From: Lutimonas halocynthiae
Lineage (GTDB): Bacteria; Bacteroidota; Bacteroidia; Flavobacteriales; Flavobacteriaceae
NCBI RefSeq assembly: GCF_030409835.1
Contig: NZ_JAUFQO010000004.1
Coordinates: 62,001-126,000, forward strand
Direction: 5' to 3'
Length of the DNA: 64,000 nt
Shown piece after piece: positions 8,249 through 33,530 of this stretch. Below the pieces are notes generated by a model, which was given only the letters and a program-made list of their open reading frames with translations, was not told the DNA's origin and searched no databases. Within the stretch, counting starts at the first letter, position 1. Every line of letters starts with the position of its first letter. Made by a program: the position numbers and the translations under genes.

Positions 8249-8400
8249 AGCAAATAATATGTACAATAATTAACGGAACACTTTTTTGGATATTGCAAAA
8301 AAATCTTACTTTTCAACACGATTCATTCTTGCCAAAAATAAATTGTTTTATTGACTCTTCTTCTGACAATTATCACTTGATATAAACTTTAGAAATTTAT

Positions 8401-9165
8401 TTATTGATATACCCTCACATAATCAATTACAAATTCCTGAGGAAAAATACTGTCATCCACTTCAGCTCCTCCAAAATTACCGCCTATTGCCACATTTAGA
8501 ATCATATAGAAAGGCTGATCAAAAGGCCAAACTTCAACAGATTTATTTTTTGGTAGAAAAGAGTAAAAAAGTTTTTTATCAATATAAAAATCGATCTTGT
8601 CTTTGGTCCAGTCGATTGCATAAATATGAAACCCTTCTTCTATTCCCTTCACTACATCCTTTCTTGTATTAATTGAAGACCCATGACTATCTGCAGTATG
8701 AAGCGTGGTGAAAATTGTCTCTGGCTCCTTTCCTACGTATTCTAAGATATCGATCTCACCACATAAAGGCCATCCCACTTCTTTAATATTAGAGCCTAAC
8801 ATCCAAAATGCCGGCCATAAACCTTTCCCTGTGGGCAATTTTGCTTTTACTTCAATTTTGCCATATTGAAATTCTAGATTCCCTTGGGTGTTTATTTTTG
8901 ATGAAGAATAGCCATCGTTTTCATGCCTGGCTGTAAGTGTTAAGAGACCATCTTTTAACTCATGGTTCTTCTCGGTATAAATCTGAAGTTCGTTATTTCC
9001 CCAACCGCATAAATTAGGGCAGCCGTCTCCAAGTTCAAAATTCCAGATCTCACTATTAAGGTTCTCACCATCAAAATTATCTTCCCAGACAAGTTCTCTT
9101 TCTTGTGCAGACAAAGTAGCACTTGAGATAAGAATGAAAAAAAGAATTGCATTAATGCGTCTCAT
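8401..9165 (-). CDS. GH16 beta-1,3-glucanase (laminarinase), secreted
   Basis: A compact 254-residue protein: a signal peptide (cleavage after about residue 20, LSA-QE) followed only by the GH16 jelly-roll. The catalytic signature GEIDILEYVG places the nucleophile at Glu137, Asp139 and the acid/base at Glu142, with the extra residue typical of laminarinases. WPAFWMLGSN before it and IDYVRVYQ at the end are also typical. It cuts internal beta-1,3 bonds of laminarin. There is no lipobox, so it is probably periplasmic or secreted, unlike the two larger lipoprotein GH16s of the locus. It is the last gene of the ten-gene operon, 20 bases after the GH17 gene; no clear terminator follows. Confidence 0.92.
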   Translation of the reverse strand: MRRINAILFFILISSATLSAQERELVWEDNFDGENLNSEIWNFELGDGCPNLCGWGNNELQIYTEKNHELKDGLLTLTARHENDGYSSSKINTQGNLEFQYGKIEVKAKLPTGKGLWPAFWMLGSNIKEVGWPLCGEIDILEYVGKEPETIFTTLHTADSHGSSINTRKDVVKGIEEGFHIYAIDWTKDKIDFYIDKKLFYSFLPKNKSVEVWPFDQPFYMILNVAIGGNFGGAEVDDSIFPQEFVIDYVRVYQ

Positions 9166-9185: not shown

Positions 9186-10115
9186 TTAGCTTTCAAATAA
9201 CTCCTGCATAACCTTTTTAGGTTTACGATTCACCGTAAAAAGCCCCCAATGCTTTTCAGGTTCCAGTGCTTCATTAGAACCTTTCCAGGATTCATCAAAC
9301 GCTTCAAAAACAAAAGTAAGAATATTGGCATCCTTGCTCCAGTCTATTAGATCATTATAGTAGATTCGCTGAAACTCCTCATTCACATTGCTAGGACAGA
9401 TTCCTTTTCCATTTGAAAAAGTTGTCCAACCGGCTTCAGTAATCACCACGGGTGTATTTGGATAAGTGTCGGCAACAGCGTAGTAGTTTTGTTTCGTATA
9501 TTCCATGGCCTCATGAATTCTCTTATATTCCCATACCGGATAAGTATGAATTGAAATAAAATCAACTTCTTCAACCAAATCTTTTAATTTATCCAGCCAA
9601 GGCAGATAGTTTTCGCAAAACGTTACAGGTTGTTTAGCTTCTCTTTTTATCATCCGTACATACTCAATAACGTTTTGAACCGGCACATAATGATCTGTCC
9701 AATCAACACAGGCCTCGTTACCCGCCGATAAACAGCATATGATATCAGGATATTCATTTGCTAAATCTATAAGTTTCTTAATCTGTTTTAAATTGATCAA
9801 TTTATTCTCTTCTAATTGATCTGCAGAATAAGTTCCTCCCCAAGGACAACCATAATTATTAGCTTCAGCAACTATATAAGCACCGAGCATTATTTTAAAA
9901 TTAAAGTTCTCTTTTTGGATAACTTCTAAAACAGTTTCAGCATGTGGATCACAGTCATATAGGCGTAGGTATTGCCAATGGTGATGAAGCATAAGAAGAT
10001 CTTCTTTAATTTCTTCATAGCTGGGTACAATACCTCCCGGCCTTTGACCTTCTCGGAAGCCAGAATAACAAATAGCTTTTCCGGGTGCCAAGTTTAATGC
10101 TGTCGTGTATTTCAT
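9186..10115 (-). CDS. GH17-like beta-glucanase, no signal peptide
   Basis: 309 residues and no signal peptide, hence predicted cytoplasmic. The TIM-barrel catalytic positions are intact: acid/base Glu134 in AGNEA and nucleophile Glu227 in ITEAGW. The N-terminal CYSGFREGQRPG replaces the FSPYxEGQ of its neighbours. GH17 enzymes hydrolyse or transglycosylate beta-1,3-glucans. It is more diverged from the two neighbouring GH17 modules than they are from each other and is closer to the lipoprotein GH17 at 16044 (shared GNEA and HTYP motifs). It follows the preceding GH17 by 40 bases in the same operon. A role on imported oligosaccharides is inferred from the missing export signal. Confidence 0.85.
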   Translation of the reverse strand: MKYTTALNLAPGKAICYSGFREGQRPGGIVPSYEEIKEDLLMLHHHWQYLRLYDCDPHAETVLEVIQKENFNFKIMLGAYIVAEANNYGCPWGGTYSADQLEENKLINLKQIKKLIDLANEYPDIICCLSAGNEACVDWTDHYVPVQNVIEYVRMIKREAKQPVTFCENYLPWLDKLKDLVEEVDFISIHTYPVWEYKRIHEAMEYTKQNYYAVADTYPNTPVVITEAGWTTFSNGKGICPSNVNEEFQRIYYNDLIDWSKDANILTFVFEAFDESWKGSNEALEPEKHWGLFTVNRKPKKVMQELFES

Positions 10116-10155: not shown

Positions 10156-11043
10156 TTAAAATTTCTTTAGTTTTTCATCTTTGTCCCAAAGGCCCCAAAA
10201 AGCGCCAACATCACCTTCCGATCCTACTTTCCATGATTCATCAAAAGAGGAAAAGTAGAAAATATCTATCTCGTCTTCATTTGACCATAGTTGTGTATTG
10301 ATAAAATATTTCATCGCATTAGTAAATGAAGGGTGTGAGCCCTGAAAACTTCCTCCCATAGATGGCCATCCGGTTTCAGAAATAATCACCTTTTTTCCAT
10401 TGGCTGCTTTAACGGCCTGATTATACATTTCCTTCATATAAATTAAGGAGTACTCTAAACTACATCCTTCCCAAAATGGATAACAATTTGCCAATATCAC
10501 ATCACAAGCTTCTGTAATTCTCGGGCGGTTTGAAAACTCATAATAAGCATCTACATAGCCCATAGGAATTTCCGGAATCGCCTCTTTTACCTGATGCATA
10601 AAAGCCAATAATTCATCTTCAGATAAGTCTTTGCGATACATTACCTCATTACCAACCGCAGCAATATCAACATATCCTTCTTTAGCCAATTTAATTAAGT
10701 TGGCTATTTCTCGTTTATTGATTTCCGGATCATCTCCTAACCAGGCACCAACCATCGTTTTAATACCATATTCATGGGCGATACGAGGGATTGCTTCATT
10801 TCCATCGGTACACGAAAATGAACGAATCCATTTCGTATAAGGTTTTATTATTTTCATCCTCCTCCTGATCTGCTCCTCAGAAATCTGATCTCCAGGCCCT
10901 TGACCTTCTTCATAAGGGCTAAAACACAAACCGTGCATTCCATTTTTCAATAGCCTCTTATATAAATTCTTTAACCCTTTATCGGTTTTATCAGCTTGAT
11001 CTATTCCAATTAATGACCTTATTTTTCCTGCTCTAACAGACAT
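10156..11043 (-). CDS. GH17 beta-1,3-glucanase, cytoplasmic paralogue of the fused GH17 domain
   Basis: 295 residues, no signal peptide. Catalytic residues are Glu133 (VGNEV) and Glu223 (ISETGWP). By eye well over half of its residues match the C-terminal GH17 domain of the transporter fusion directly upstream, including FSCTDGNE, NCYPFWEG and YFSSFDESWKV, so the two arose by tandem duplication. The gap to the fusion gene is two bases, implying translational coupling. Predicted to trim beta-1,3-gluco-oligosaccharides in the cytoplasm, feeding the phosphorylases; it could instead act as a transglycosylase, as some GH17s do. Confidence 0.88.
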   Translation of the reverse strand: MSVRAGKIRSLIGIDQADKTDKGLKNLYKRLLKNGMHGLCFSPYEEGQGPGDQISEEQIRRRMKIIKPYTKWIRSFSCTDGNEAIPRIAHEYGIKTMVGAWLGDDPEINKREIANLIKLAKEGYVDIAAVGNEVMYRKDLSEDELLAFMHQVKEAIPEIPMGYVDAYYEFSNRPRITEACDVILANCYPFWEGCSLEYSLIYMKEMYNQAVKAANGKKVIISETGWPSMGGSFQGSHPSFTNAMKYFINTQLWSNEDEIDIFYFSSFDESWKVGSEGDVGAFWGLWDKDEKLKKF

Positions 11044-11045
11044 AA

Positions 11046-13394
11046 TTATATGTTTTTTAATTTTTCATTTTTATCCCAAATTCCCCAACGTTGACCTACG
11101 TCACCTTCGTGATGCACTTTCCAAGATTCATCAAACGACGAGAAATAATACAATTCCACCCCTTCTTTATCTGCCCATTTATTAGCATTAATAAAGTATT
11201 TCAGGGCATTTTCCTGAGACGGAATTGCTTCGTTGATTGAACCTCCTTCACTGGGCCAGCCAGTTTCAGAAATAATTACGGGTTTGCCTTTTGCAATACC
11301 TTTTGTGACCTTATACATATGGTTTAAATAAATAGTTGCCTGATCTATAGGATACCCTTCCCAAAAAGGATAGCAATTAACCAGGATAATATCGCAGGCT
11401 TCAACAAGCTCAGGATGTTCTATAAATTTATAATAGGCATCTACATAAGCAACTGGAATATCTGGTAATGCTTCTTTTACTTTTTCAATATAGTCCAGTA
11501 ATTCTTGCGCTGTTAAATCGTTTCGAAGTAATACTTCGTTACCAACAACGGCTATATCAACATATCCTTTTTTGGCAAGATCAATTAAGGCGTTAATCTC
11601 AATATCATTTTGAGCTTTATCATGCCCTACCCAGGCACCAACCATTGTTTTCAAGCCTTTTTCACGCGCTGTTTTTGGAATGATCTCATTTCCATCTGTA
11701 CAAGAAAAAGAACGAACCCCTTTCGTGTAAGGTGTAATGATATCCATACGTTTTTGAATTTGTTCTGCAGACAAGATGTCACCAATTTCCTGACCTTCTG
11801 CATAAGGGCTAAAACAGATACCTGATAGTCCATCATTCAATGACTGCGAATAGAGTTTTTTGATTTCTGTTTTAGATTTTGTGCTAAAATCAATATCAGT
11901 TTTTAAGCCAATATCCAAATCAACAGAGGCTAGTGACAATAATTTACCGCTTTGGTAATGATCACTTAATTCATTTGTAGGTGTTGTGGAATTGCGCTTA
12001 TCCAATTCTGTACGAATTTCATTCGCGCGCTCTTCTGTCACATCATAATTCTTCATAATCAGCATGGCAATAATGGTTCCTACCATTGGGAAAAAGCAAA
12101 AGAATGCGTGCAATCCATCAACCGCTCCTTGTTGATCTGTCGTTGCTAAATCTGGATTAAAGCCAACCACACCAATAATTACACCACTAAGTGCACCGGC
12201 TATTGCAAAACCAACTTTAACCATCCACCAATAAATGGCACCAAAAATACCTTCTCGCCTTTTACCTGACCTCAATTCATCAATATCGATTACATCAGCT
12301 GTCATTGACATCATGATGGTAAATAAGCTCCCTATACCAAAAGAGAAAAAGGGAAGTGCAATAAGGTAAAGCCAAGGTTTTCCGGGTATAAAAAGAAAAT
12401 ACATCATGACGTAGCCTATAAGAGAAATACCCTGTGCCCACATAAATGCTTTTATCTTGCCCATTTTTTTTGACATCCAAGTAACTAACGGAATTACGAT
12501 AAAAGTCGTACCTAAAGCTCCAATACAACCAAACAATGCAACCCAAATACCGGTAGCGGCTGCATCACCATTAAATAATCTATATACAATCACAAAATAG
12601 GTTAGGGCAGCTACGGTATTAAATGCATTAAAAATTAAAAATGTGGCACCACATATCTTTCTAAATTCTGCTATTTTAAACGCATCTTTAAAGCTTTCCA
12701 CAATTTTTATTAGACTACCTCCAATATTAGAGGTATTCAGTGGCTCATAATTTTCCTCAAGGGTCGACTTACTTTTAATAAATATAGCAGGTACCATCGC
12801 TGCAATTGCACAAGGTACTGCAACCCAAATTGCTAAATCACGAATCGCAACCTCTTGAGATGGAAACCATTCCGGATCATCCATAATCACCCAGAACCAT
12901 GGAGCAATGACCCAAGCCCACTGCCCAATCCATTGCGCTACAGCCATGATATTGGTTCTCTCGTGAAAATCATTACTCATTTCGTATCCCATAGCTACAT
13001 AGGGTACGCTAAAAAAGGTAAGCCCTAAATAAAAAACAACCGACCATAAAAAGAAATACCAAAAATTATATTGCAAAGAATTATCTGCATAGAGCTGCCA
13101 CATAATAGTAAATGCTACGCCCATGATAACCGCACCAATTAAAACATAGGGTTTCCGTCTTCCCCATTTCGATTTGGTATTATCAGAAATGAAACCCATT
13201 ATAGGATCCGTAATGGCATCAAAAACTCTTGGAAAAAAATAAACAAGAGACCACATCCATCCATTAAATCCAAAGGATTGCACTAGAGAAACCATAAATA
13301 TTCCGAGAATAGCTGGAAACATTTGATTGGCAAACATTCCGACCCCAAAGGCTAATTTTTGACCGAACGGGACTTTTGTAGAAACTGTAGACAT
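11046..13394 (-). CDS. GPH/MFS transporter fused to a GH17 glycoside hydrolase
   Basis: One continuous 782-residue frame with two complete modules. Residues about 1-470 are a 12-segment GPH symporter (FGQKLAFGVGMFANQMFP; FDAITDPIMGFISDNTKSKWGRRKPYV; DELRSGKRREGIFGA). A linker of about 25 residues leads to a full GH17 domain (about 490-782) with acid/base Glu620 (VGNEV) and nucleophile Glu710 (ISETGWP). Both ends of GPH carriers lie in the cytoplasm, so the hydrolase should sit at the inner mouth of the carrier. Predicted job: import beta-1,3-gluco-oligosaccharides and cleave them on arrival. No stop or frame change occurs at the joint, and the downstream GH17 gene is a close paralogue of the fused domain. 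I know of no characterised carrier-GH17 fusion. Modules certain, coupling inferred. Confidence 0.9.
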   Translation of the reverse strand: MSTVSTKVPFGQKLAFGVGMFANQMFPAILGIFMVSLVQSFGFNGWMWSLVYFFPRVFDAITDPIMGFISDNTKSKWGRRKPYVLIGAVIMGVAFTIMWQLYADNSLQYNFWYFFLWSVVFYLGLTFFSVPYVAMGYEMSNDFHERTNIMAVAQWIGQWAWVIAPWFWVIMDDPEWFPSQEVAIRDLAIWVAVPCAIAAMVPAIFIKSKSTLEENYEPLNTSNIGGSLIKIVESFKDAFKIAEFRKICGATFLIFNAFNTVAALTYFVIVYRLFNGDAAATGIWVALFGCIGALGTTFIVIPLVTWMSKKMGKIKAFMWAQGISLIGYVMMYFLFIPGKPWLYLIALPFFSFGIGSLFTIMMSMTADVIDIDELRSGKRREGIFGAIYWWMVKVGFAIAGALSGVIIGVVGFNPDLATTDQQGAVDGLHAFFCFFPMVGTIIAMLIMKNYDVTEERANEIRTELDKRNSTTPTNELSDHYQSGKLLSLASVDLDIGLKTDIDFSTKSKTEIKKLYSQSLNDGLSGICFSPYAEGQEIGDILSAEQIQKRMDIITPYTKGVRSFSCTDGNEIIPKTAREKGLKTMVGAWVGHDKAQNDIEINALIDLAKKGYVDIAVVGNEVLLRNDLTAQELLDYIEKVKEALPDIPVAYVDAYYKFIEHPELVEACDIILVNCYPFWEGYPIDQATIYLNHMYKVTKGIAKGKPVIISETGWPSEGGSINEAIPSQENALKYFINANKWADKEGVELYYFSSFDESWKVHHEGDVGQRWGIWDKNEKLKNI

Positions 13395-13431: not shown

Positions 13432-14928
13432 CTACTGTTGACCTTGTATTAATATTGTTTGAATCGCTTTTTCATTTATGCTAATATCTATTGTTTTTTC
13501 ATCTAGGGACAAAGTGAAATTCTTCGATGTATCTCCTTCATTAAACACCACTACAGCAATTGAACCATCTTGATTTTTTGCAGCAGTGACCATTAAAGAT
13601 TCATCTGAATTTTCAAATCCGATACGCGTTGCACCAGGTCTTATAAATTTACTGAAATGACTTAGTGCATAATAGATCGGGGTAAAGTAAACTTCGTCAT
13701 TTTCAGGATCCACGATTACCGGTGCTAAACACCAATTTTCAAACCAGTTTGGGCCTCCTTGCTTATCAAGAACCATATTCCAATCTATCCAACCATCTAC
13801 CCAATTATTCATACATCCGATTATATCTCTCGCATAGCGATTAACAGGTGCATATTTAGGATGTAAATATTTTTGATCTTCCGGCGCCCAATCCCATCCC
13901 CAATCTGTAGATTCTTTCGACCAGTACCATTGATCATCCTGCCATTTAGGGATTTCAGAATCACCGCAGGCCTCAGATTGAATTAAATATTTGTCAGGAG
14001 CCTTTTCATGTGTATATTGAAGTGATTCCGGAAAATAATCATAGGTGCTTGCATACCAGTGTACTGCTGTACCATCATAGTATTTGGAAGACGCTTCGTC
14101 TTTGAACATTACATCAGCCCATTCTTTCAACTCTTCGCCTCGGTTTTGATCATAGCCAAGGATTTTAACATCGTGACCATCTGATTCTAGTTTTGGCCCA
14201 AGATGATGTTGAACAAAATCAGTCATCTCTTCTGGCGTAAAATGCATACTCTCCCAGTTGTTATTGTTACCTAAAGGTTCGTTTTCTACAGTGAAGCCCC
14301 AAATATCAATCCCTTCCGATTTATAAGCTTCTATATATTTTGAAAAAAATAAGGCCCATGTATCTTTATATTCAGGCAATAATTTACCCCCGCGCCAGTC
14401 ATTATTATCTTTCATCCAAGGTGGTGCAGTCCATGGGGATGAGAGAATTTTAAATCCGTCTTTTGATATAGCCATGGCGTCTTTAATCATTGGGATCAAA
14501 TCATCACGGTCTTCATCAATTGAAAAACTTTTCAAGTCTTTATCTCCTTCAACAGGAGCATAGGAATAATTACTTAAGGAGAAATCGCAAGAATTCATAT
14601 GCGTTCGAGTGAGCGAATACCTGGCTCCTTCTTCTCCAAAATAAGCCTCAAGAACTTTTCCCCGATTTTCTTTACTCAAGTTGTTTAATAGATATGCCGA
14701 AGACTCTGTAAAAGAGCCTCCAAATCCAGTGATCGTTTGGAAGGTATCCTCAGGTGATAATTGTATAGACGATTTTTCATCGCCTATAGAAAACTCCTTT
14801 ATCTGTGTAAGTTTATTCCCTCCAGCTGAAGTTTCATAAACAGCTACCTCTAATTCCATATGTTTAGTATTACATCCCATCAAGGTCATGATTATTAAGG
14901 TGTACATGAAGTAATTAAACTGTTTCAC
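13432..14928 (-). CDS. GH30 beta-glucanase lipoprotein (probable beta-1,6-glucanase)
   Basis: GH30 enzyme with the GFGGSFTESSA N-terminal motif, acid/base Glu217 in VENEP, nucleophile Glu319 in QSEAC (numbered from the start used here), and the C-terminal beta-sandwich (SKFIRPGATRIG). The frame stays open up to an ATG at 14988, which overlaps the previous gene, but that would put about 20 extra residues before the signal. I prefer GTG at 14928, which gives the lipoprotein signal MKQFNYFMYTLIIMTLMGC; ATG at 14907 is the other option. Together with its paralogue at 22414 it probably removes or cuts beta-1,6-linked glucose at laminarin branches, outside the cytoplasm. GH30 also includes glucosylceramidases and xylanases; the context favours glucanase. 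Confidence 0.88.
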   Translation of the reverse strand: MKQFNYFMYTLIIMTLMGCNTKHMELEVAVYETSAGGNKLTQIKEFSIGDEKSSIQLSPEDTFQTITGFGGSFTESSAYLLNNLSKENRGKVLEAYFGEEGARYSLTRTHMNSCDFSLSNYSYAPVEGDKDLKSFSIDEDRDDLIPMIKDAMAISKDGFKILSSPWTAPPWMKDNNDWRGGKLLPEYKDTWALFFSKYIEAYKSEGIDIWGFTVENEPLGNNNNWESMHFTPEEMTDFVQHHLGPKLESDGHDVKILGYDQNRGEELKEWADVMFKDEASSKYYDGTAVHWYASTYDYFPESLQYTHEKAPDKYLIQSEACGDSEIPKWQDDQWYWSKESTDWGWDWAPEDQKYLHPKYAPVNRYARDIIGCMNNWVDGWIDWNMVLDKQGGPNWFENWCLAPVIVDPENDEVYFTPIYYALSHFSKFIRPGATRIGFENSDESLMVTAAKNQDGSIAVVVFNEGDTSKNFTLSLDEKTIDISINEKAIQTILIQGQQ

Positions 14929-14971
14929 ATATGTATATTTAAACAAAGTCGTACGATGGTTCCTTTTATTT

Positions 14972-16000
14972 TTATTCGGATAATCCATTATAAATTGTTT
15001 TTACAACATCAAATGTTTCTTTTTTATTCCGGTCTATATCAACAATTCCCCAATACTCTTCATTAGGAGTTCCATCATAGGGTACACCAGTACTATTAGG
15101 CGCCCATCCACCAATATCTTGTGAGGCATTATCCCCTGCTTTCCACCATTCATCTGAAAAGGAAAATAAAGTTACACCTGAACATATTTCCATATTATTA
15201 AAAACGCTTTCCAATATTTTGGCATTGGCTCCAGCCTGGGCTTTTTCATTTACGCCTTGTTCATACCCTTCCTTTGAGATCGTCATATAACTATCACCTC
15301 CAGCTTCAGATAAGTACATGGGTTTTTCACTTACCGCCTTCCACTGATCATAAATATCTCCTGGTTTATCCCAACGATAAACATTCATACCCCAAACGTC
15401 TATATTTGGACATGAAGAAAGCGCTAATGTATCAGGTAACTCACCGTGAGCAGTAGTTACCGGGTGGGTCGCGTCATTTTCATGAATGATTTTAGCAGCA
15501 TTGTTCATAGCTGTATACCAGTTTTTGATATCTCCTTCAAACCATTCCGGATGATAATTGTACTCGTTACCAAGTTCCCATAGCAAAATGGCTTCATGTG
15601 TTTTGTATTTATTTACATAATCGATAAATGTGCCCGAAAGAATATCAAAATTTCCGCCTTGATTGTAACCAAATCCAATGATCACTTTTATACCCGCAGC
15701 GTGAATCTCATCCAGTACGGCTTCATCGTCGATCGGCCCATATACTCTTATCGTATTTATTCCGGCCTCAACCATAAGTGCTAAATCCTGAGTTAAATTT
15801 CCAAAACTTCTGACATCACTATTCTTCGGCACAGGGTTGTAGCAAATGCCTTTGATAACATAAGGATGGCCATCAACCATAATTTGACGACCTGATATCT
15901 CTACAGATTGATTCGTAAAAGGTGAACCGCACCAAATCAGCGTTCCAACAAAAAGAAAAAGAGCGATTTTACTGAATTTTATTAAATTAATTTTGTTCAT
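14972..16000 (-). CDS. Clan GH-A glycoside hydrolase, family not assigned
   Basis: 342 residues with a hydrophobic N-terminal signal. It is a small TIM-barrel hydrolase: strand-4 acid/base motif ELGNEYN (Glu146) and strand-7 nucleophile YLSEAGG (Glu232). The opening, with the phrases VDGHPYVIKGICYNPVP and NTIRVYGPIDD, resembles the catalytic barrel of GH2 and of GH72 glucanosyltransferases, and GH158 endo-beta-1,3-glucanases are another candidate. I cannot name the family with certainty. The Cys at residue 24 follows a Trp (LIWC), an atypical lipobox, so lipid attachment is uncertain. It lies between a GH17 and a GH30 in the ten-gene operon, so an extracytoplasmic beta-1,3-glucan activity is likely. 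Confidence 0.75.
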   Translation of the reverse strand: MNKINLIKFSKIALFLFVGTLIWCGSPFTNQSVEISGRQIMVDGHPYVIKGICYNPVPKNSDVRSFGNLTQDLALMVEAGINTIRVYGPIDDEAVLDEIHAAGIKVIIGFGYNQGGNFDILSGTFIDYVNKYKTHEAILLWELGNEYNYHPEWFEGDIKNWYTAMNNAAKIIHENDATHPVTTAHGELPDTLALSSCPNIDVWGMNVYRWDKPGDIYDQWKAVSEKPMYLSEAGGDSYMTISKEGYEQGVNEKAQAGANAKILESVFNNMEICSGVTLFSFSDEWWKAGDNASQDIGGWAPNSTGVPYDGTPNEEYWGIVDIDRNKKETFDVVKTIYNGLSE

Positions 16001-16043: not shown

Positions 16044-17330
16044 TTATTCAGCATTTTCATTCAGGGTTGGGGGTGGTAAAACATCATTCATCAATTTTTC
16101 CTCATCTCCATTATAAGTTTTCTCAATAGGATTCCCACCTCTTGTCAATCCCTTAAAAATGCCACTATCGACCATATTCCATAAAGCATATTTCGCTTGA
16201 CCTTCTTTGGTGAACAAGCCAAAATGATTTTCAGAACCCATCGGATTCTTCGAATCTTTCCATGGCTCATTAAATCCTTCAAAATAAAAACATGATATAC
16301 CGGCTTCATTTGTCCATTCTCGCATGAATTTATAATACATGCCTGATTTATACTCATCAGTTGCTCTGGATCCCGTGGAACTATAGAAATCCCCGGGTTT
16401 TGAAACGGTAGCCCAGCCTGTTTCGCCAATATGAATAGGTTTGTTAACCCCTATACTTTTCATATAACCTGAAACACTGTCATACTGCTTCTTTGCAAAA
16501 GCCTGTGCACGGATCATAGCAGCATCAATTTTCTCCATATCAGATAACTTCTCATTGTCTTCTACAATCCAAAATTCAGGGTTGTAGTGAGTATTGTGAT
16601 AAGGATAGGTGTGCATCGAGATATAATCTACAGCGTTATATAATTTTTCAAGATCCTCGGTGTGATACTCTGCACCGCCTCCTCCCCAGGAAGAAAAATC
16701 ATCTGAACTGGTGATCCACAGGTCTTTGGGAAGTTCTCCTGCTTCTTTTAATCCTTGTAAATGGTTCACCCATTTTAAAATAACTGAAGGCTGAACAAAA
16801 TACGTTGCTGCCCAATGCACCATGGCCTCATTTCCCACGGCAATCACTTTAACGATATCAGGATATTTTCTTGCCAAATGTGCAGCCACCAATATTTGTC
16901 CTTCATTGGCTTCACTCTCCTGGTCATGATCAGGTTCTAACCCCGTCCATGCATTCTTGCAATCGATCCAGGCACCTAACATGACATACATTTCAAACTT
17001 TGGATCTTCTTCCTTTAATTCAGAAATTGCTTTTAAGAGATTCGTGGCCTGCGGCAAGTGAACCTTGTAAGTACGAACAATTTTAACACCCATTGCTGCC
17101 ATAATTCTCATATCCTCTTTAAGCTCATCTATTGCAGGCTCAATGCCGTGATCGACATCTCTATAACCTCCATAAGACATGGCCAAATAATCGGGATTTC
17201 CTAATATTTCAGCAGCTGTTATCTGTTTTTCTTCAATCACAGTTTCTGTTTCTTTTTTTGTATTATTTACACATCCTGTAGCCATAATCAGTATGGTAAG
17301 AATGATTAAACTTCTTAATTTAACTTTCAT
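16044..17330 (-). CDS. GH17 beta-1,3-glucanase lipoprotein
   Basis: 428 residues from Met at 17330; the frame is open upstream to 17414, but that would overlap the phosphorylase gene and hide the signal. From 17330 the protein begins with a lipoprotein signal ending IMATGC. The GH17 barrel has acid/base Glu168 (VGNEA) and nucleophile Glu303 (IGETGW), with an insertion between them that makes it longer than the cytoplasmic GH17s of the locus. It ends with an acidic, proline-containing tail. Predicted to work on the cell surface or in the periplasm on laminarin or its larger fragments. It starts seven bases after the stop of the phosphorylase gene, within the operon. Confidence 0.9.
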   Translation of the reverse strand: MKVKLRSLIILTILIMATGCVNNTKKETETVIEEKQITAAEILGNPDYLAMSYGGYRDVDHGIEPAIDELKEDMRIMAAMGVKIVRTYKVHLPQATNLLKAISELKEEDPKFEMYVMLGAWIDCKNAWTGLEPDHDQESEANEGQILVAAHLARKYPDIVKVIAVGNEAMVHWAATYFVQPSVILKWVNHLQGLKEAGELPKDLWITSSDDFSSWGGGGAEYHTEDLEKLYNAVDYISMHTYPYHNTHYNPEFWIVEDNEKLSDMEKIDAAMIRAQAFAKKQYDSVSGYMKSIGVNKPIHIGETGWATVSKPGDFYSSTGSRATDEYKSGMYYKFMREWTNEAGISCFYFEGFNEPWKDSKNPMGSENHFGLFTKEGQAKYALWNMVDSGIFKGLTRGGNPIEKTYNGDEEKLMNDVLPPPTLNENAE

Positions 17331-17337
17331 TTTATCC

Positions 17338-20300
17338 CTATTTTTTAAATGAAACAATGATCTGACTGATCTCCCCTGTTCTTTTAAAAACTTTCTTACT
17401 TGTGTCAAAATCAATATTTAAGTCGGTAAACTCTAAAGAAGGTCCTCGATTAAATTCAACTTTTAAAGCCTCTTTTTCAGAAAGCTTGTATACAACTGGA
17501 ATCTGGCAATAGGTAAAACAAAGAGAATTCTTATCAACTTCAATCTCTTTTAATTCCTTGTCTATATTCAAATATGAAAAAGTCATAGGTTCCTTTAGAA
17601 ATTCATCTTTTCTAAGCAAACGAGGATTGAACATAATTTTACCTTCTGACACAGATATGCCTAATTCACCAAATCTGCTTAAAATATCTTCTTTTACCTG
17701 TCCTGTCATCCCGGGTTGCTGTGCCCCTTTGCTTCCTGGAGTATGAGAATAGGGGTCGGTTGGAAAAGCACCATACAATTCAGGAGACTTATGAACCCCA
17801 ATTCCCTCATTGGCTTCGTAATAGTGGTCTAATAATTTGCCGACAACAACATCATCTTCGTCATTCTTAACAGCTAATAAACATGTTTCCTGAATGCTTA
17901 AAACCAATTTTGACACCATATGCCAATAAATGGAACCTAAGCCTTCGTAACCAAAAAATGTTCCGGATCTTCCAGTGAACGATTTATGATCAAAAATGCC
18001 TTCGAAGACATCCAGCAGGGTCTGCGTATCCTTATTGACAAGTGATTCGTATTCTTCTGGTAATTCAGACAAGGCTTGCTTCAAACTATCTGCATTGTTA
18101 AATGTTCCGTTAAAATGACAGATACCATTCACATCCATTTCGATAATCTGTTTATTACCGTCTTTTAACAGCTGCTGTAGTAAATCTGATCGCTTCACTT
18201 TTCCGGAAGGGATATTATTCTTTACATCAAATCTTGGTAATTCTTTATTGGGATACAATATGTAACTGTATTGATCTGATCTGAACAAAGCACTATTCTT
18301 CAAGGCATCTAAAACTTCTAAAGAGTCTTTGCCTGTAATGAATCCCGAGCTTAAAACAGCCACTTGGCCTTCTAACATTTCAGGTAAATAAGAAATAGAT
18401 ACTTCAGAATTACCCTCTACCGTCATCAAATTATAAGCATGGTACAAATTATCCTTTCTTTTGTTGGCAACTATCGTATGGTCTAAGAATTGTTTCGAGA
18501 TTTCTAAAAATCGCAATAAATCTTTTTTCGAAATGGAATCTTTATCACTTGAAAAACCGTTTTCATATATTCCTGTTCTATAATCACTGGCAGCAATTCC
18601 CAACCCGTCAAGAACTGTTTTCCGATCTTTATCTGAAACCGTTCCTGAAAGTATGTGTTTGTTTTCAGTGAATGTTTCCAGCACTTTTTCAAAAAAGAGT
18701 GCTAATTCTATTGAGACTTCATTTTCTTTAGTCGACGCATTTTGGACTATTCCTTCAAAGAAATTTATAAAACGTCTCAGATAATAAAGCGTCACCATAG
18801 ATACTCCGTTTCCTACCAAGGCATTATTGGCATCATTCCATTCTGGTCTTTGAGTGTTCATCCAAATACCTCCTTCAGGAATAAAGTTTGATATTTTTGC
18901 CAGTACAGTTGCCAATAATTTTTCAATAAGATTTACTTTATAGATAAAAAAGTTTTTGTCTCTAAGTAAAGCCCCATCCGCACCTAATTCAATTCTTTTT
19001 TGGGCAATTCTTTCATCTGCCTCATGATCAAAGTCTATGGTATCTTTTGGATTCAATAAAATGTCTTGATAACTCTTAATTCTATAAGGTACATTAGCAT
19101 AGACAAATATTTCCTGATCAAAGTAGGTAGCCAGTTGATTTGGGTAATAATCTTCAATAAACTCCAAGAATTTTAAGAGGTAGATGATTTGATGATCTCC
19201 CCAATACCCAATATATGACCATGGATCATCTGGTTCAATTGTCTCCCAATCAAACCCATCCTTTGTCACCCTGTATGGATTATAGCCATCAAAAGTTGTT
19301 GCATTCAAGAATTTATGAATCATACTTTCAATAAACTCCGGATACGAATGCGCTAAGGCTTCCCAGTTTTGAAAAATATCTCTCCAGTTACCTTCATAGT
19401 CCAGAATTTTTGAACCATCTAATTCACTGGTCGTGTTGATTGAAAACTTATTCCAAGGCCTGCTTGGGTCACCATGTCTTCTACTAAACTTAAGTGGCAT
19501 GTATTCGGCAGCCAGTCTCTTAAAGTTTTTATCCTCATTATTCTTAGCCAAATCCTTTAAATGACTTAGCATAAACAATTCAGGAAGATTTTTAAGCAGG
19601 TCTTCTTTCTTCTTAAATACTTTTTTATTGGCAGTCTCTAGATACTTTAAAAAATCCCATTTTTCAATTTGATAGCCATCGTCAAATATACCACCGCGCA
19701 TGATATTGAAAAGCGTGTTGGCAAAATGTCTTGTATTCATTAATTTATCAGCGGTTAATTGCATGGCATCTGAAGCGGCATTCAACTCTAATAAATTTTT
19801 TGATCCTAATTCGATATCTTCTTGAATGAAACCATTAAGATCTGTTTCATTTTTAATCAATTCAGCAATTTCACTGATGTTTACCATTGTTTGGTTGACA
19901 TTTGCAACCAGCATCCAGGATTTTTTAGAATTAGGTTCTAAAGTTATATCTGAACTAACAAAATAAGCTCCTTTCTCAGCTTTGACGTCTACTTCCTGAG
20001 TAATTTCTTTTCCTTTTCTGAAATTATCAATTTGCAATGATGATAATAAATAAGTAGGATTATCAATTCCTGTTGACCATACTACTGTAGCTTTTAAAGC
20101 TTCGCTAGGCTCTGCTTTATCCACTATGATCGCACTTAAAGCATATATCCCTATACCAGCTTCAACTTCTAATTCACATTTCTTATAAGCATCTACTAAA
20201 TTACTCCTGTCATTTTGTAAGCCGGCATTAACGCCATAAGGCAGTATATTTTGAATCCCATCTAAAACGCTCACTTGAATAACTGAAGAGGCATCATTGA

Positions 20301-20796
20301 TTAAAGTTGATTTTTTTACAAATCCGAACTTATCACTTGAATTCCATTGATACCTAAAAGTAAGACCAAAATCACTATTTGTTTCTTCAAAAATGACTTT
20401 ATTCCCGAAGCTATTTTTGTATAAGTTCCTTTGGATTTTGTAAATACCCGAATATCTTTCAGAAAAAGGTTCCCATAAATAGGTTTTACCCTCCTTACGA
20501 ATCTGTAAGATCGTTTTACTTCCGGTGATATCAGCCGATTCTGTTATTTTATCATCAGTGTAGTAGGGAAACAATGACGATTCAGAATCTTTCCTACCTG
20601 CTGACAATCCTCCATTGCTCGAAATAAACATCCAATGATTTGAATCGCTCACAATACTCATGAAAAAAGGTCTCATGGCATCATTATTCGAAATTCTATA
20701 ATAATCTTCATTCTCAAAGGATATTAATTCACCTTTGATTTCTTTTGATCCAAATGTAGTTTTATTGTTTCCTACGTAGATTTGATTTACACTCAT
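17338..20796 (-). CDS. Clan GH-Q phosphorylase, GH149-like beta-1,3-oligoglucan phosphorylase
   Basis: A 1152-residue cytoplasmic protein (no signal). The catalytic-domain motif RPEWNDANNALVGNG, near residue 653, is the counterpart of the DWND motif of GH94 and carries the expected general acid. Other conserved patches are KFSRRHGDPSRPWNKF and NWRDIFQNWEAL. Length and motifs fit GH149 (about 1100 residues, common in Bacteroidota beta-glucan loci) better than GH94; GH161 is the other possibility. The reaction would be stepwise phosphorolysis of beta-1,3-gluco-oligosaccharides to glucose-1-phosphate and a shortened chain. With the GH94 enzyme it gives the locus a fully phosphorolytic end stage. 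It lies 66 bases behind the sugar porter and seven bases before the GH17 lipoprotein in the operon. Confidence 0.8.
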   Translation of the reverse strand: MSVNQIYVGNNKTTFGSKEIKGELISFENEDYYRISNNDAMRPFFMSIVSDSNHWMFISSNGGLSAGRKDSESSLFPYYTDDKITESADITGSKTILQIRKEGKTYLWEPFSERYSGIYKIQRNLYKNSFGNKVIFEETNSDFGLTFRYQWNSSDKFGFVKKSTLINDASSVIQVSVLDGIQNILPYGVNAGLQNDRSNLVDAYKKCELEVEAGIGIYALSAIIVDKAEPSEALKATVVWSTGIDNPTYLLSSLQIDNFRKGKEITQEVDVKAEKGAYFVSSDITLEPNSKKSWMLVANVNQTMVNISEIAELIKNETDLNGFIQEDIELGSKNLLELNAASDAMQLTADKLMNTRHFANTLFNIMRGGIFDDGYQIEKWDFLKYLETANKKVFKKKEDLLKNLPELFMLSHLKDLAKNNEDKNFKRLAAEYMPLKFSRRHGDPSRPWNKFSINTTSELDGSKILDYEGNWRDIFQNWEALAHSYPEFIESMIHKFLNATTFDGYNPYRVTKDGFDWETIEPDDPWSYIGYWGDHQIIYLLKFLEFIEDYYPNQLATYFDQEIFVYANVPYRIKSYQDILLNPKDTIDFDHEADERIAQKRIELGADGALLRDKNFFIYKVNLIEKLLATVLAKISNFIPEGGIWMNTQRPEWNDANNALVGNGVSMVTLYYLRRFINFFEGIVQNASTKENEVSIELALFFEKVLETFTENKHILSGTVSDKDRKTVLDGLGIAASDYRTGIYENGFSSDKDSISKKDLLRFLEISKQFLDHTIVANKRKDNLYHAYNLMTVEGNSEVSISYLPEMLEGQVAVLSSGFITGKDSLEVLDALKNSALFRSDQYSYILYPNKELPRFDVKNNIPSGKVKRSDLLQQLLKDGNKQIIEMDVNGICHFNGTFNNADSLKQALSELPEEYESLVNKDTQTLLDVFEGIFDHKSFTGRSGTFFGYEGLGSIYWHMVSKLVLSIQETCLLAVKNDEDDVVVGKLLDHYYEANEGIGVHKSPELYGAFPTDPYSHTPGSKGAQQPGMTGQVKEDILSRFGELGISVSEGKIMFNPRLLRKDEFLKEPMTFSYLNIDKELKEIEVDKNSLCFTYCQIPVVYKLSEKEALKVEFNRGPSLEFTDLNIDFDTSKKVFKRTGEISQIIVSFKK

Positions 20797-28934: not shown

Positions 28935-30398
28935 TTAATAACCGGGGTTTTGTGCCCAACGATCTCCTGCTAATTCTATTTCTATTGAAGGAATTGGGAA
29001 CAATTCGTGTTTCCCACTTGTAAATCCTTGAATTTCTTGTGCGGCTCTGCCAGTTCTTACCAGATCAAAAAATTGATGACCTTCACCCAACAATTCCAAA
29101 CGTCTTTCTTGATAAATGGCACTTGTTAATGATGTACCTGTCTCATTTGATTCTGCTAATCCAGCTCTAACTCTTACACGATTCAAATAAAGCAGTGCCT
29201 TACTGTCATCAAGACCACCTCTATTATATGCTTCTGCAGCCATTAACAATACATCTGCCAGACGAATTGCTCTGTAATTATTAGGATTAGTAAGATTCGC
29301 ATCTCCTGTATTCAAATCACCTTGACGTGCTATATATTTTCTGTTAAAAAATCCGGTATGCTCATATCCTTCTGCATAAGTTGCTCCGGTTTCTGCAGAC
29401 CAGGCAACAATATCAAGAATGGCAACATCCTTACGCAAGTCAGCTGCTTCATACTGATCAGCTGCTTCTTGTGTTGGCACATTAAAGCTAAATCCTGAAT
29501 CAAATGTAGGACCACTATAGTTTCTGATACCGTTAAAACCAACTGCTACATTCCCTTCACTACATTGAAGACATCCAAACCCGGCTCCCTCTTTATCAGT
29601 GTACTGCACTTCAAAGATGGATTCGTTATTGTTTTCTCCTTCTTGTTCAAAAATCGTATTGTAATCAGTTGTTAAAGTATAAGGCCCGGCAATCACTTGC
29701 TCAAAGGCACCAGCTGCATCTGAAAATTTTTCCTGATACAAATAGATCTTACCCAGAAGCGCTTGAGCTGCACCTTTTGTAGCACGTCCTGTTTCTGCTT
29801 CTTCCCATGATACTGGTAAATTTTCAGAAGCGAAAATCAAATCACTCTCTAACTGAGCATAAATTTCTGCTTTTGGTGTTCTGTCTAATTCAAACTGATC
29901 ACCAAACTGAATTCTTTTATCAACTGCAAACGGAACATCTCCGAACCATTTGACCAATTCAAAATAATAGTAAGCTCTTAAAAAACGGGCTTGAGCAAGT
30001 ACTTCATTTTTATTGGTAAATTCTGTTTTGCCTTGAAACTCCATGATATAATTCGCACGATTTACTCCTGCGTACATCCAACTCCATATATCTCTGAGTT
30101 GCGCGTTAACAGGTGTATGAATCATGTCATCAATTTCTTGGATTCCAACGACATCATTTGCGCTTTCACCACCAGCTAAGGTATTGTTCGAAGCAATTTC
30201 TCCGAGCATGACATTTATATATGAAGATTGTAAAAGATCATATGCTCCTATTAAAGCCTCCTGATAGTCACCTTCGCTATTAAAATAGTCTTCAGAATTC
30301 TGATCCTGCGATTCAACATCCACAAAATCATCACTGCATGACGTAACTATTGTAAATACAAATACAAATAGTATTGATGTTATTTTAAGTGTTTTCAT
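28935..30398 (-). CDS. susD: SusD/RagB-family glycan-binding lipoprotein
   Basis: 487 residues, lipoprotein signal ending TIVTSC, then the SusD fold: NSEGDYQEALIGAYDLLQ near the N-terminus, the helical TPR core with ARFLRAYYYFELVKWFGDVP, and the C-terminal RRLELLGEGHQFFDLVRTG typical of the family. SusD caps the SusC barrel at the outer surface and helps hand the oligosaccharide over. The gene ends 21 bases before the lipoprotein gene and follows susC by five bases. Confidence 0.95.
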   Translation of the reverse strand: MKTLKITSILFVFVFTIVTSCSDDFVDVESQDQNSEDYFNSEGDYQEALIGAYDLLQSSYINVMLGEIASNNTLAGGESANDVVGIQEIDDMIHTPVNAQLRDIWSWMYAGVNRANYIMEFQGKTEFTNKNEVLAQARFLRAYYYFELVKWFGDVPFAVDKRIQFGDQFELDRTPKAEIYAQLESDLIFASENLPVSWEEAETGRATKGAAQALLGKIYLYQEKFSDAAGAFEQVIAGPYTLTTDYNTIFEQEGENNNESIFEVQYTDKEGAGFGCLQCSEGNVAVGFNGIRNYSGPTFDSGFSFNVPTQEAADQYEAADLRKDVAILDIVAWSAETGATYAEGYEHTGFFNRKYIARQGDLNTGDANLTNPNNYRAIRLADVLLMAAEAYNRGGLDDSKALLYLNRVRVRAGLAESNETGTSLTSAIYQERRLELLGEGHQFFDLVRTGRAAQEIQGFTSGKHELFPIPSIEIELAGDRWAQNPGY

Positions 30399-30403
30399 AG
30401 TTA

Positions 30404-33400
30404 TTAAAATTTAAGATTTACACCTAACATATAGGTTCTTGGAACAGGATAAAATCCTTGATCTATACCTCCTCCAATAGGTTCACCGGTAGATGCCGAT
30501 GGGTCATATCCTGTATACTTTGTAAATGTATATGCGTTATTAACTGAAGTGTATAATCTGAATTTGTCAATACCCTTCGAATTATCTGTGTTAAATGTAT
30601 AGCCCAATTGAATATTTTGAATTCTCAAATAGGAACCATCTTCTACATAAAAGTCTGAAAACAATCCGTTTGAATTGGCTCCTGTAGTAACTCTATGGAA
30701 CGAATCAGTACTACCTTCACCAGTCCACCTATTCAAAAAATAAGCACTTCTGTTCGTCAAGGGTTGGTTACGCTCATAATTTCTGACAATCTCATTGCCT
30801 ATTGAAGCGAAAAAGTACATTCCAAAATCCCAACGTTTATAGTTCATTCCTAAATTAAGACCCATGGTCCATGGTGCAATCGGATCTCCAATATAAGTTC
30901 TGTCATCCTCGTTAATCTGTCCGTCATTATTTGTATCAACATAGCGCAAGTCTCCGGGTGAAGCATTGGTTTGCGTAGCATGACTAGCAACTTCATCTTC
31001 ATTTTGAAAAACACCATCGGTTTTAAGTCCATAGAAATAACCAATAGGCTGACCAACTTCCATCCTTGATGGTGGCTCTTGTCCTACACCGAATGAACCT
31101 CCGGTAACAAAACCATTGTCGCTTGACACAAAAGTTACTTCATTGTTTAGATACGTCATGTTATAACTGATATTGAATCTAAAATCATCTGAGATATCTT
31201 CTCTATAAGCGATCTGAAATTCAAATCCTTTATTTTCAACAGACCCGGCATTGACAATAGGCGGTCTTGAACCAGGAGCAGCTGCTCCTAAGATTCCTGA
31301 AACCTGAGGAACCAATAATAAATCATCTGTCGTTTTATTAAAGTAATCCATCGTGACATCAATCTTGTTATCCAAAAATTTCATATCAAGACCAATATCA
31401 AGTGTTTTTTGTTTTTCCCATTGTATCTCTGGATTGGCCAAAGCTCCTTCGGCCTTACCGTAGATCAATTCATCATTTAAAACATAGGTAGCTTCTCCAT
31501 TTAGAAGAGAGACATAACCATAATCAGGAATACGATCATTACCAACGATTCCGTAACTCCCTCTCAATTTTAAGAAATTAAGCCATGAGGTTTTCTCCAT
31601 AAAAGATTCATCTGTCATGACCCATCCCGCTGAAACCGATGGAAAATAACCAGCTCTGTTTTCAGGACCAAATCTTGTAGATGCATCTCTACGCAAAACA
31701 ACAGATATCAAATACTTTCCTTTGTAATCGTATTGGGCTCTTGTGAAATACGAAAGTAATCTTGTATCATATGTGTCACCTCCGTTTATATAATTATCCA
31801 CAACATCTGATGCATTCTCAATACTGGCATTTTCAAAAGAGTTATCAGGAATATCAAATCCTGTAAATCCAGAAAACTGACCCGTTGATTGAAATACAGA
31901 CATCGCAAGAAGCGCTGTAAGGTTATGTGTATCCGCCCAACTGTTTTTATAAGTTACAAAATTGTCCCAAGTATAATCTCTGTAGATATTCTGGTATTCA
32001 TTAACACTATTTCTAGTAACATTAAATACCTTTCCTGAACCATAATATACTTCAGGCATAAATACCTTTCCTGTTACTTCCGAATAGTTGAACTGAAACC
32101 TTGATTCAGCAGTAAAATGCTCTAAAAATGAATAGTTCAAACCAACGACTCCGGTAATCTTGTCTACATGGGTTTCATTAAAGGTGTTTTCAATTTGAGC
32201 TACTGGATTAATTACTTCATTTCCTAAGCCTTCTGCCAAGGTGTATTCTCCATTTGCATCTGTTACTGTCAAATCTGGAGCCATATTCAAAGCATTAAAC
32301 AAAACCGAACCCAAAGCGTTTTCAGAAAGATTCTTTCTGTTCGTCTTTGTATAGATAGCAGAGGTATTCAATTTGAAATTCTTCAAAAAATCCAAGTTAT
32401 AATTAACCCTACCTGTAAAACGATTGAAGTTAGCATCACTACCACCAACTATACCGTCTTGAGTCAAATAAGAAGTTCCAACAGAAAGTTTTGAATCTTC
32501 CCAACCCTTATTCACTGCAAAATTTACATTTGCAATAGGAGCTGTCTGGAATATTTCATTTTGCCAGTCAGTTCCTTTTCCTAGTGTGGTAAAGTCACTG
32601 TATGGAGGAGTATCTCCACCTGCTGCATAACTTTCATTAACCAGCACGCCATATTCTGTTGCATTTAAAGACGGAATTTTTCTGGTTGTTTCTTGTATAC
32701 CAGCATAAGTATCCAAATCAAATTTTAAGTCACTGCTTTTGGTACCTGATTTAGTTGTAATCAGTATTACTCCATTTGCAGCCCTAACTCCATATATACC
32801 TGCCGTAGCATCCTTCAGTACATTTATACTTTCTATATCATTAGGATTAATAACACTTAAGTCTTCAATCACAGCTCCATCTACAAGTATAAGTGGATCA
32901 TTATTACCATTTGTTGTAACACCCCTGATTCGAATATTAGAGGAACTACCTGGAGAACCTGAATTAGATGTAATATTCACACCTGATACCTGCCCTTGCA
33001 GTGCTTGTTCCACCCTAACCGGGTTTAATTTCTCAATGGTTTCAGACCCCACAACTGCAACTGCACCGGTGATCTCCTTTTTAGACTGGGTTCCATAACC
33101 AATCAATATCACTTCATCCAAAGACTCCGCATCTTCGATTAAAGTAATGTTTAACGCATCAGCATTCTCGATTTGAACCTCATAGGTTTCAAAGCCTATA
33201 TAAGAAAAAACGAGAACTGAAGAAATAGGAACATCTTCGAGAACGAAGTTTCCATCAAAATCAGTGGCTGTTCCAGTACTTGTTCCTTTAATCAAAATAC
33301 TAACACCTGGTAAAGGAGAATCAGCACCTTCATTAACCGCTCCTGTTACTGTTACATTTTGAGCCGCAGCCGAAACAACAATAAAAAGGAAAACGAAAAA

Positions 33401-33418
33401 AATTATTTTTGACTTCAT
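30404..33418 (-). CDS. susC: SusC-type TonB-dependent outer-membrane transporter
   Basis: 1004 residues from Met at 33418. The frame extends 22 codons further upstream, but only this start gives a signal peptide (MKSKIIFFVFLFIVVSAAAQ). Order: carboxypeptidase-like N-terminal extension (PLPGVSILIKGTSTGTATD), plug domain with GSPGSSSNIRIRGV and DPLILVDGAVI, then the 22-strand barrel ending RTYMLGVNLKF. It imports glucan oligosaccharides into the periplasm with energy from TonB-ExbBD. It is the first gene of the susC-susD-SGBP-GH16 operon; the region in front of it carries several candidate regulator half-sites. Confidence 0.95.
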   Translation of the reverse strand: MKSKIIFFVFLFIVVSAAAQNVTVTGAVNEGADSPLPGVSILIKGTSTGTATDFDGNFVLEDVPISSVLVFSYIGFETYEVQIENADALNITLIEDAESLDEVILIGYGTQSKKEITGAVAVVGSETIEKLNPVRVEQALQGQVSGVNITSNSGSPGSSSNIRIRGVTTNGNNDPLILVDGAVIEDLSVINPNDIESINVLKDATAGIYGVRAANGVILITTKSGTKSSDLKFDLDTYAGIQETTRKIPSLNATEYGVLVNESYAAGGDTPPYSDFTTLGKGTDWQNEIFQTAPIANVNFAVNKGWEDSKLSVGTSYLTQDGIVGGSDANFNRFTGRVNYNLDFLKNFKLNTSAIYTKTNRKNLSENALGSVLFNALNMAPDLTVTDANGEYTLAEGLGNEVINPVAQIENTFNETHVDKITGVVGLNYSFLEHFTAESRFQFNYSEVTGKVFMPEVYYGSGKVFNVTRNSVNEYQNIYRDYTWDNFVTYKNSWADTHNLTALLAMSVFQSTGQFSGFTGFDIPDNSFENASIENASDVVDNYINGGDTYDTRLLSYFTRAQYDYKGKYLISVVLRRDASTRFGPENRAGYFPSVSAGWVMTDESFMEKTSWLNFLKLRGSYGIVGNDRIPDYGYVSLLNGEATYVLNDELIYGKAEGALANPEIQWEKQKTLDIGLDMKFLDNKIDVTMDYFNKTTDDLLLVPQVSGILGAAAPGSRPPIVNAGSVENKGFEFQIAYREDISDDFRFNISYNMTYLNNEVTFVSSDNGFVTGGSFGVGQEPPSRMEVGQPIGYFYGLKTDGVFQNEDEVASHATQTNASPGDLRYVDTNNDGQINEDDRTYIGDPIAPWTMGLNLGMNYKRWDFGMYFFASIGNEIVRNYERNQPLTNRSAYFLNRWTGEGSTDSFHRVTTGANSNGLFSDFYVEDGSYLRIQNIQLGYTFNTDNSKGIDKFRLYTSVNNAYTFTKYTGYDPSASTGEPIGGGIDQGFYPVPRTYMLGVNLKF

Positions 33419-33530
33419 ACAATTAAATTTGAATCTGAAAATTAATTGACATGAACACCTTTTCAATAAAAAAAGCCTATACAAAAAACATACGGCTCAA
33501 TTCAGCTTTAAGATAATTGAGTATAGAATA

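Follow-up and report, generated by a model that had tools for sequence, protein, structure and literature searches.

A carrier-GH17 fusion of the FbGH17B type in a laminarin locus of Lutimonas halocynthiae

The closest described system is FbGH17B of Formosa sp. Hel1_33_131, published in 2018, in which a GH17 domain is fused behind a 12-helix MFS carrier (PMC6246565; this and all other papers are cited here from excerpts). The protein was cloned and assayed on debranched laminarin, from which it releases glucose as an exo-beta-1,3-glucosidase; a coupling of hydrolysis and uptake was proposed at the same time, and the MFS-GH17 fusion was termed 'common among marine Flavobacteriia' (PMC6246565). 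A 2023 study reported GH17-MFS fusions from many bloom bacteria: among the expressed variant 1 laminarin loci that it examined, most had one, including those of SAR92, Luminiphilus and SAR86 (PMC10108472). Nothing on the fusion was found in the excerpts of PMC11345257 and PMC8371827. A first, sequence-only reading of the DNA analysed here knew of no characterised carrier-GH17 fusion; this novelty claim falls, since FbGH17B was published and assayed in 2018 and the 2023 study extends such fusions to many bacteria. The protein described below is real but not new in design, its architecture having been known since 2018.

We analysed a window of 64,000 nucleotides from Lutimonas halocynthiae and compared it with the Formosa locus. 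In genome G143, taken as that of Formosa, a GH17A gene is followed by a GH30 gene and then by a fusion gene, and the GH17A product is identical over 430/430 residues to 6FCG, which is FbGH17A (PMC13188888). Because of this neighbour, we take the G143 fusion as FbGH17B (FORMB_24740, AOR29491.1). The window fusion is homologous to it over the full length, with 65% identity over 785 columns and the same length of 782 residues, and the two loci have the order GH17A-GH30-fusion-GH17 in common, the window having an additional gene between GH17A and GH30.

The fusion gene lies at positions 11046..13394 on the minus strand of the window, as do all further window features given here, and encodes 782 residues in one uninterrupted frame; read on the plus strand, the same interval holds many stops. 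Pfam places MFS_2 at residues 16-454 (218.6 bits, cut-off 27) and Glyco_hydro_17 at residues 706-780 (52.2 bits, cut-off 28.2), that is, an N-terminal carrier and a C-terminal GH17 in a single frame, and the reading frame, Pfam, alignment, structure model and Foldseek together identify a GPH/MelB-like carrier fused to GH17, of the FbGH17B type. The structure model, computed from a 43-row alignment (mean pLDDT 84.4; pTM 0.61, at which the mutual placement of the carrier and GH17 domains is unreliable), predicts 12 MFS membrane helices across residues 10-447, with the fifth in three pieces and an extra helix at 221-240, then a short helix at 454-468, a low-confidence linker at about 470-507 and a beta/alpha barrel up to residue 780. 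On the gene, the carrier domain (residues 10-447) extends over 12054..13367, as delimited by loop charges, alignment, model and Foldseek; a cytoplasmic tail and low-confidence linker (residues 448-507) follow at 11874..12053, placed by joint gaps, loop charges and model, and the GH17 barrel (residues 508-780) at 11055..11873, placed by Pfam, model and Foldseek. Among solved structures, Foldseek returns MelB as the best match of the carrier domain and the GH17 enzyme RmBgt17A as that of the second domain (TM by target length 0.87 and 0.86, respectively). The window protein is thereby confirmed as an intact carrier-GH17 fusion with both catalytic glutamates, and the uninterrupted two-domain frame that the sequence-only reading described, with its 12-helix carrier and barrel, stands.

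The same reading had considered that a sequencing error might hide a stop at the joint, and had proposed a search for the domain pair in other genomes. The pair recurs in 100 distinct frames, with the window's own gene twice among them and a few truncated at contig ends, and the gap between the aligned carrier and GH17 parts has a median of 30 residues (range 23-68). A joint kept in 100 distinct frames rules out a sequencing error and argues equally against chance read-through. Three-domain carriers of about 1025-1142 residues, as frame lengths had indicated, are not real: in four of these putative frames, translated with table 11, the stretch from carrier to GH17 is interrupted by several stops or by many.

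We then counted stop-free matches spanning both domains, as judged by reading frames and with long frames proven broken excluded. Among the matches listed, the fusion is present in one frame in at least 18/299 genomes of the family, the window's own included, and in at least 15/395 genomes of a phylum sample; the own genome, G177 and G194 are shared between the two counts, G194 being counted on a frame that spans both domains even though its match is cut. Within the genus, the fusion is whole or nearly whole in 5/22 genomes and partial in one more (G003), and that of the congener G001 (taken as Lutimonas saemankumensis, NZ_JAIUZR010000006.1) is 82% identical to the window fusion. The G003 fusion is seemingly split, with matches at G003:C1:1041592-1043130 and 1156133-1156591, the match to fusion residues 1-153 lying about 113 kb from the match to residues 268-782. 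Two genomes of the genus hold unfused carriers 90-92% identical to the window's (L218 7658-9106 and L219 2972-4405); neither GH17 copy was found behind these carriers in the stretch fetched, which in L219 ends with the contig about 3 kb on.

Named fusion records come from Flavobacteriaceae, Cyclobacteriaceae, Flammeovirgaceae, Saprospiraceae, Lewinellaceae, Chitinophagaceae and others, and seven come from Betaproteobacteria, mostly Burkholderiales by title. In a whole-genome search, the seven betaproteobacterial genomes (L195, L196, L198, L201, L203, L204 and L206), picked because they hold the fusion, carry it at 58-59% identity, and the six of their carriers retained in the carrier tree group as a single clade within the Bacteroidota rows. 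Provided that the MAG assignments are right, the betaproteobacterial fusion was likely acquired by horizontal transfer.

The MFS_2 score and the MelB fold of the carrier assign it to the GPH/MFS_2 group. Its match to NCBIfam TIGR00792 (gph) spans the full model (1-437) and scores 187.9 bits, below the cut-off of 231.35, so that any sugar assigned to the carrier is putative. Residues D59 and D63 align with the cation-site D55 and D59 of MelB and are invariant across 43 aligned fusions, an alignment that fits cation symport and leaves the sugar unfixed.

In MelB, the N- and C-termini are both cytoplasmic. We counted Lys and Arg in the loops of 96 aligned rows (the window's own sequence in twice), with loop borders drawn manually, guided by the hydropathy profile and the known MelB topology; the later structure model agrees with the hand-set helices. 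The loops on the N-terminal side carry a mean of 22.5 such residues over 104 positions, versus 2.8 over 60 positions on the other side. The loop charges and the MelB-like model thus show a predicted cytoplasmic location for the fused GH17 domain, in agreement with the cytoplasmic C-terminus assumed in the first reading. If the domain were instead periplasmic, it would feed the carrier from outside, a reading that is compatible with the coupling of hydrolysis and product uptake in PMC6246565, where the excerpt leaves the side of the domain unnamed. We consider this very unlikely, since the even number of helices, the positive-inside charge, the MelB-like model and fold match, and a soluble paralogue with no visible signal peptide all speak against it.

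The catalytic pair of the fused domain, assigned by alignment, comprises E620 in VGNEV (11535..11537), the predicted acid/base, and E710 in SETGW (11265..11267), the predicted nucleophile; with the Pfam score above cut-off and the barrel fold, this pair identifies the domain as GH17. Both residues, which the first reading had pointed out, are kept in 99/99 fused and 152/152 stand-alone rows of our GH17 alignment (rows at least 45% identical and longer than 240 residues; the stand-alone rows include L111, a fused gene truncated where its contig stops, and number 151 without it). A dead enzyme in some relatives was considered when a first text pattern missed motifs in 20/100 frames, and both of them in 3/100, and is rejected on the 99/99 aligned rows.

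The acceptor site of the soluble transglycosylase MlGH17B uses Tyr136, Trp191 and Glu192; FbGH17B has Met in place of Tyr136 and is reported as glucose-releasing, and the exchange Tyr102Ala abolished transfer in RmBgt17A (all as reported in PMC11005184). The Formosa fusion gene in G143 has Met at position 136 too. In the fused domain of the window, the equivalents are Leu623 (11526..11528, aligned with the acceptor-platform Tyr136 of PMC11005184), Trp678 and Glu679, so that the MlGH17B set is incomplete, whereas the soluble GH17 neighbour of 295 residues, which follows the MlGH17B numbering, has Tyr136, Trp191 and Glu192 all present. At position 136, 139/152 stand-alone rows of the alignment have Tyr (139/151 with L111 left out), versus 8/99 fused rows; the other 91 fused rows have Leu (58), Met (17), His (11), Phe (3) or Gln (2).

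The absence of Tyr from the fused domains suggests a hydrolase beside a soluble transglycosylase, and we read the window's fused copy as a putative hydrolase because its acceptor-site Tyr is Leu and the soluble copy keeps the transglycosylase set. The fused GH17 could instead act mainly as a transglycosylase that makes longer or branched glucans out of the sugar coming in: its identity to the MlGH17B-type neighbour is 57%, all 99 fused rows retain the equivalents of Trp191 and Glu192, and its best-matching solved GH17 is the transferase RmBgt17A. Given the loss of Tyr in 91/99 fused rows, the effect of Tyr102Ala in RmBgt17A (PMC11005184) and the glucose released by FbGH17B (PMC6246565), we regard this as improbable. 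The hydrolase reading itself is weaker than the import scheme given below: one deep fused group mostly keeps Tyr (7/10 rows, the remaining three having Phe), Leu also occurs in 12/151 stand-alone rows, and Tyr loss and fusion form only 1-2 independent pairs in the tree, too few for statistics. We therefore infer the division of labour between the two copies from their residues.

To place the fused domains among their relatives, we built a GH17 tree from 205/251 sequences (near-copies removed at 88%, alignment columns 50 and 136 left out), a carrier tree from 147/180 sequences (near-copies removed at 93% within one state) and a check tree of 41 chosen rows; the two large trees are quick trees with likelihood-test support only and no outgroup. 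In the GH17 tree, 86 fused or cut-fused rows stand on one side of a branch with support 98, and 118 stand-alone rows together with one fused row (L113) stand on the other. None of these 118 stand-alone rows, which represent 151 before near-copy removal, belongs to the fused lineage. A further 39 stand-alone genes, several of which repeat genes already in the set (e.g. in L217, L220 and L249), all score as the soluble type with fused and soluble profiles built from our own rows, and none is a fused-lineage member. Judged by this tree, the fused GH17 forms a lineage separate from that of the neighbouring soluble GH17. The fusion label changes twice on the GH17 tree versus 26 times on the carrier tree, where at least 15 changes are forced by well-supported branches; thus carriers would often gain, lose or exchange the domain, and the domain is not found carrier-free.

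Fused-type GH17 domains also occur on a second carrier type (L099 4312-6891, L066 1498-3996 and L093 4488-6953, in G194, G659 and G089). These carriers are about 40% identical to the window's and group with stand-alone type-2 carriers; a tree that forces them into type 1 is worse by 149 log-likelihood units (AU p 0.00035, an optimistic value, as the group was chosen after the first tree was seen; the G089 carrier is on a long branch). The full fused frame is present in both G194 and G659, which are species of the same genus. Conversely, L113 3884-6346 (G357) joins a soluble-type GH17 to a type-1 carrier, probably as an independent fusion; a separate soluble copy was not seen in the 10.5 kb fetched from G357. 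In the excerpted literature searched, we found no mention of the second carrier type or of the L113 fusion, and the separateness of the fused lineage, its lack of free copies in the sample, the second carrier and the Tyr loss go beyond the published accounts found.

The genes around the fusion make up a laminarin locus of the type known from Formosa (PMC6246565), which bears out the beta-1,3-glucan context of the first reading. They run in the order SusC and SusD, a protein with a weak PKD match, GH16, GH30, a sugar porter, a GH149 phosphorylase, an FbGH17A-type GH17, a GH2-barrel protein, GH30, the fusion and the soluble GH17, followed by a third GH17-like protein, GH16 and a CotH-domain protein. 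The SusD and TonB-dependent SusC-like pair is found by profile match at 28935..33484, and the GH149 beta-1,3-oligosaccharide phosphorylase at 17338..20796 by its match to 6hq6 (1654.9 bits). The FbGH17A-type GH17 (16044..17414) scores 27.3 in Pfam, slightly below the cut-off of 28.2, and is 63% identical to the 6FCG-identical Formosa gene over about its last 300 residues. Pfam further identifies the protein with a GH2 barrel-domain match (14972..16000; 29.2 bits, cut-off 21), the GH30 (13432..14988), which is of debranching type in the Formosa locus (PMC6246565), the GH16 (8401..9165), laminarinase-like by context, and the CotH-domain protein (6740-8266) within the cluster.

The soluble MlGH17B-type GH17 (10156..11043, by Pfam and alignment) begins two bases past the end of the fusion gene and has no signal peptide visible by eye. 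A soluble GH17 lies directly behind 80 of the 94 type-1 fusions, is not there in 10 and is not visible in four. The third GH17-like protein (9186..10115, Pfam; 309 residues, again with no signal peptide visible by eye) shares about 31% identity with the fused domain across 189 residues and has relatives in many fetched loci (60 frames). Elsewhere in the window, at 670-3105 and 3131-4744, lie a GH94 phosphorylase whose match to 3qde (1375.6 bits) puts it near the cellobiose phosphorylases and, next to it, another GPH carrier, this one unfused; the two might form a further phosphorolytic route for glucans alongside the laminarin locus.

Taken together, we think it likely, with some room for doubt, that the window protein is an FbGH17B orthologue in a laminarin utilisation locus that operates by import and hydrolysis. 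From the enzyme families, short beta-1,3-oligosaccharides would be released from laminarin by periplasmic GH16 and GH17A, on the outer side of the inner membrane; the carrier would import these with a cation, the tethered GH17 would hydrolyse them at the inner membrane face, and the GH149 phosphorylase and the adjoining soluble GH17 would share the product. Tethering may lower the local oligosaccharide level and so help uptake, and it is plausible that hydrolysis by the tethered GH17 pulls uptake; the GH149 oligosaccharide phosphorylase of the locus could do the same low-oligosaccharide job. The excerpted accounts of the fusion yielded no test of whether cutting keeps cytoplasmic oligosaccharide low or pulls uptake.

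The fusion might also merely anchor and co-express two proteins acting on the same sugar, with uptake neither sped nor pulled by cutting, and we give this a chance not far short of even. The carrier does not need the fusion, as 46/140 type-1 carriers stand alone, including two in the same genus that are 92% and 90% identical (L013, L014), and a soluble GH17 and the GH149 phosphorylase are present in the same locus. Against mere anchoring, the fused GH17 lineage is only found carrier-attached in our sample, and on two carrier types, which hints that attachment itself is kept; its recurrence on the second type argues that the tether has a benefit. A fuller account goes beyond the import-and-hydrolysis scheme: the fused GH17 would be a lineage living only tethered to carriers, moved between two non-sister carrier types, having swapped transglycosylation for hydrolysis after fusion while its soluble sister is the transferase, so that carrier and enzyme form a one-polypeptide transport-and-digestion unit whose tether is itself selected. 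This account is tentative, and we would put it somewhat below an even chance.

Laminarin is a major marine carbon source, and taking it up through a carrier that has its own hydrolase is unusual. For specialists, the locus offers a clean pair in a tethered Leu-type and a soluble Tyr-type GH17, which provides a ready test of the effect of the tether on uptake and of single-residue control of hydrolysis versus transfer.

Finally, we compared the fusion with the known systems at the level of protein domains. Like FbGH17B, it combines an N-terminal 12-helix MFS carrier with a C-terminal GH17 that has a residue other than Tyr at position 136, here Leu versus Met in Formosa; the Formosa enzyme has been assayed, whereas the window enzyme is known here from sequence. 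Its fused domain belongs to a GH17 subgroup related to MlGH17B, the beta-1,3-glucanosyltransglycosylase of Muricauda lutaonensis, to which FbGH17B is 53% identical (PMC11005184). MlGH17B is a single-domain protein with Tyr136 and no signal peptide, in contrast to the fused domain with its Leu, and it is the window's soluble neighbour that shares its length of 295 residues and three named transfer residues. With MelB, the melibiose permease of the GPH family, the carrier shares the fold, 12 helices and two cation-site aspartates, but the identity in the structural match is 17%, the sugar specificity is not transferable and MelB has no attached enzyme. With RmBgt17A (4WTP/4WTR), the second domain shares the GH17 barrel, the catalytic Glu pair and the acceptor-site Trp and Glu, at 32% identity in the structural match, while RmBgt17A is a fungal transferase with no carrier attached.
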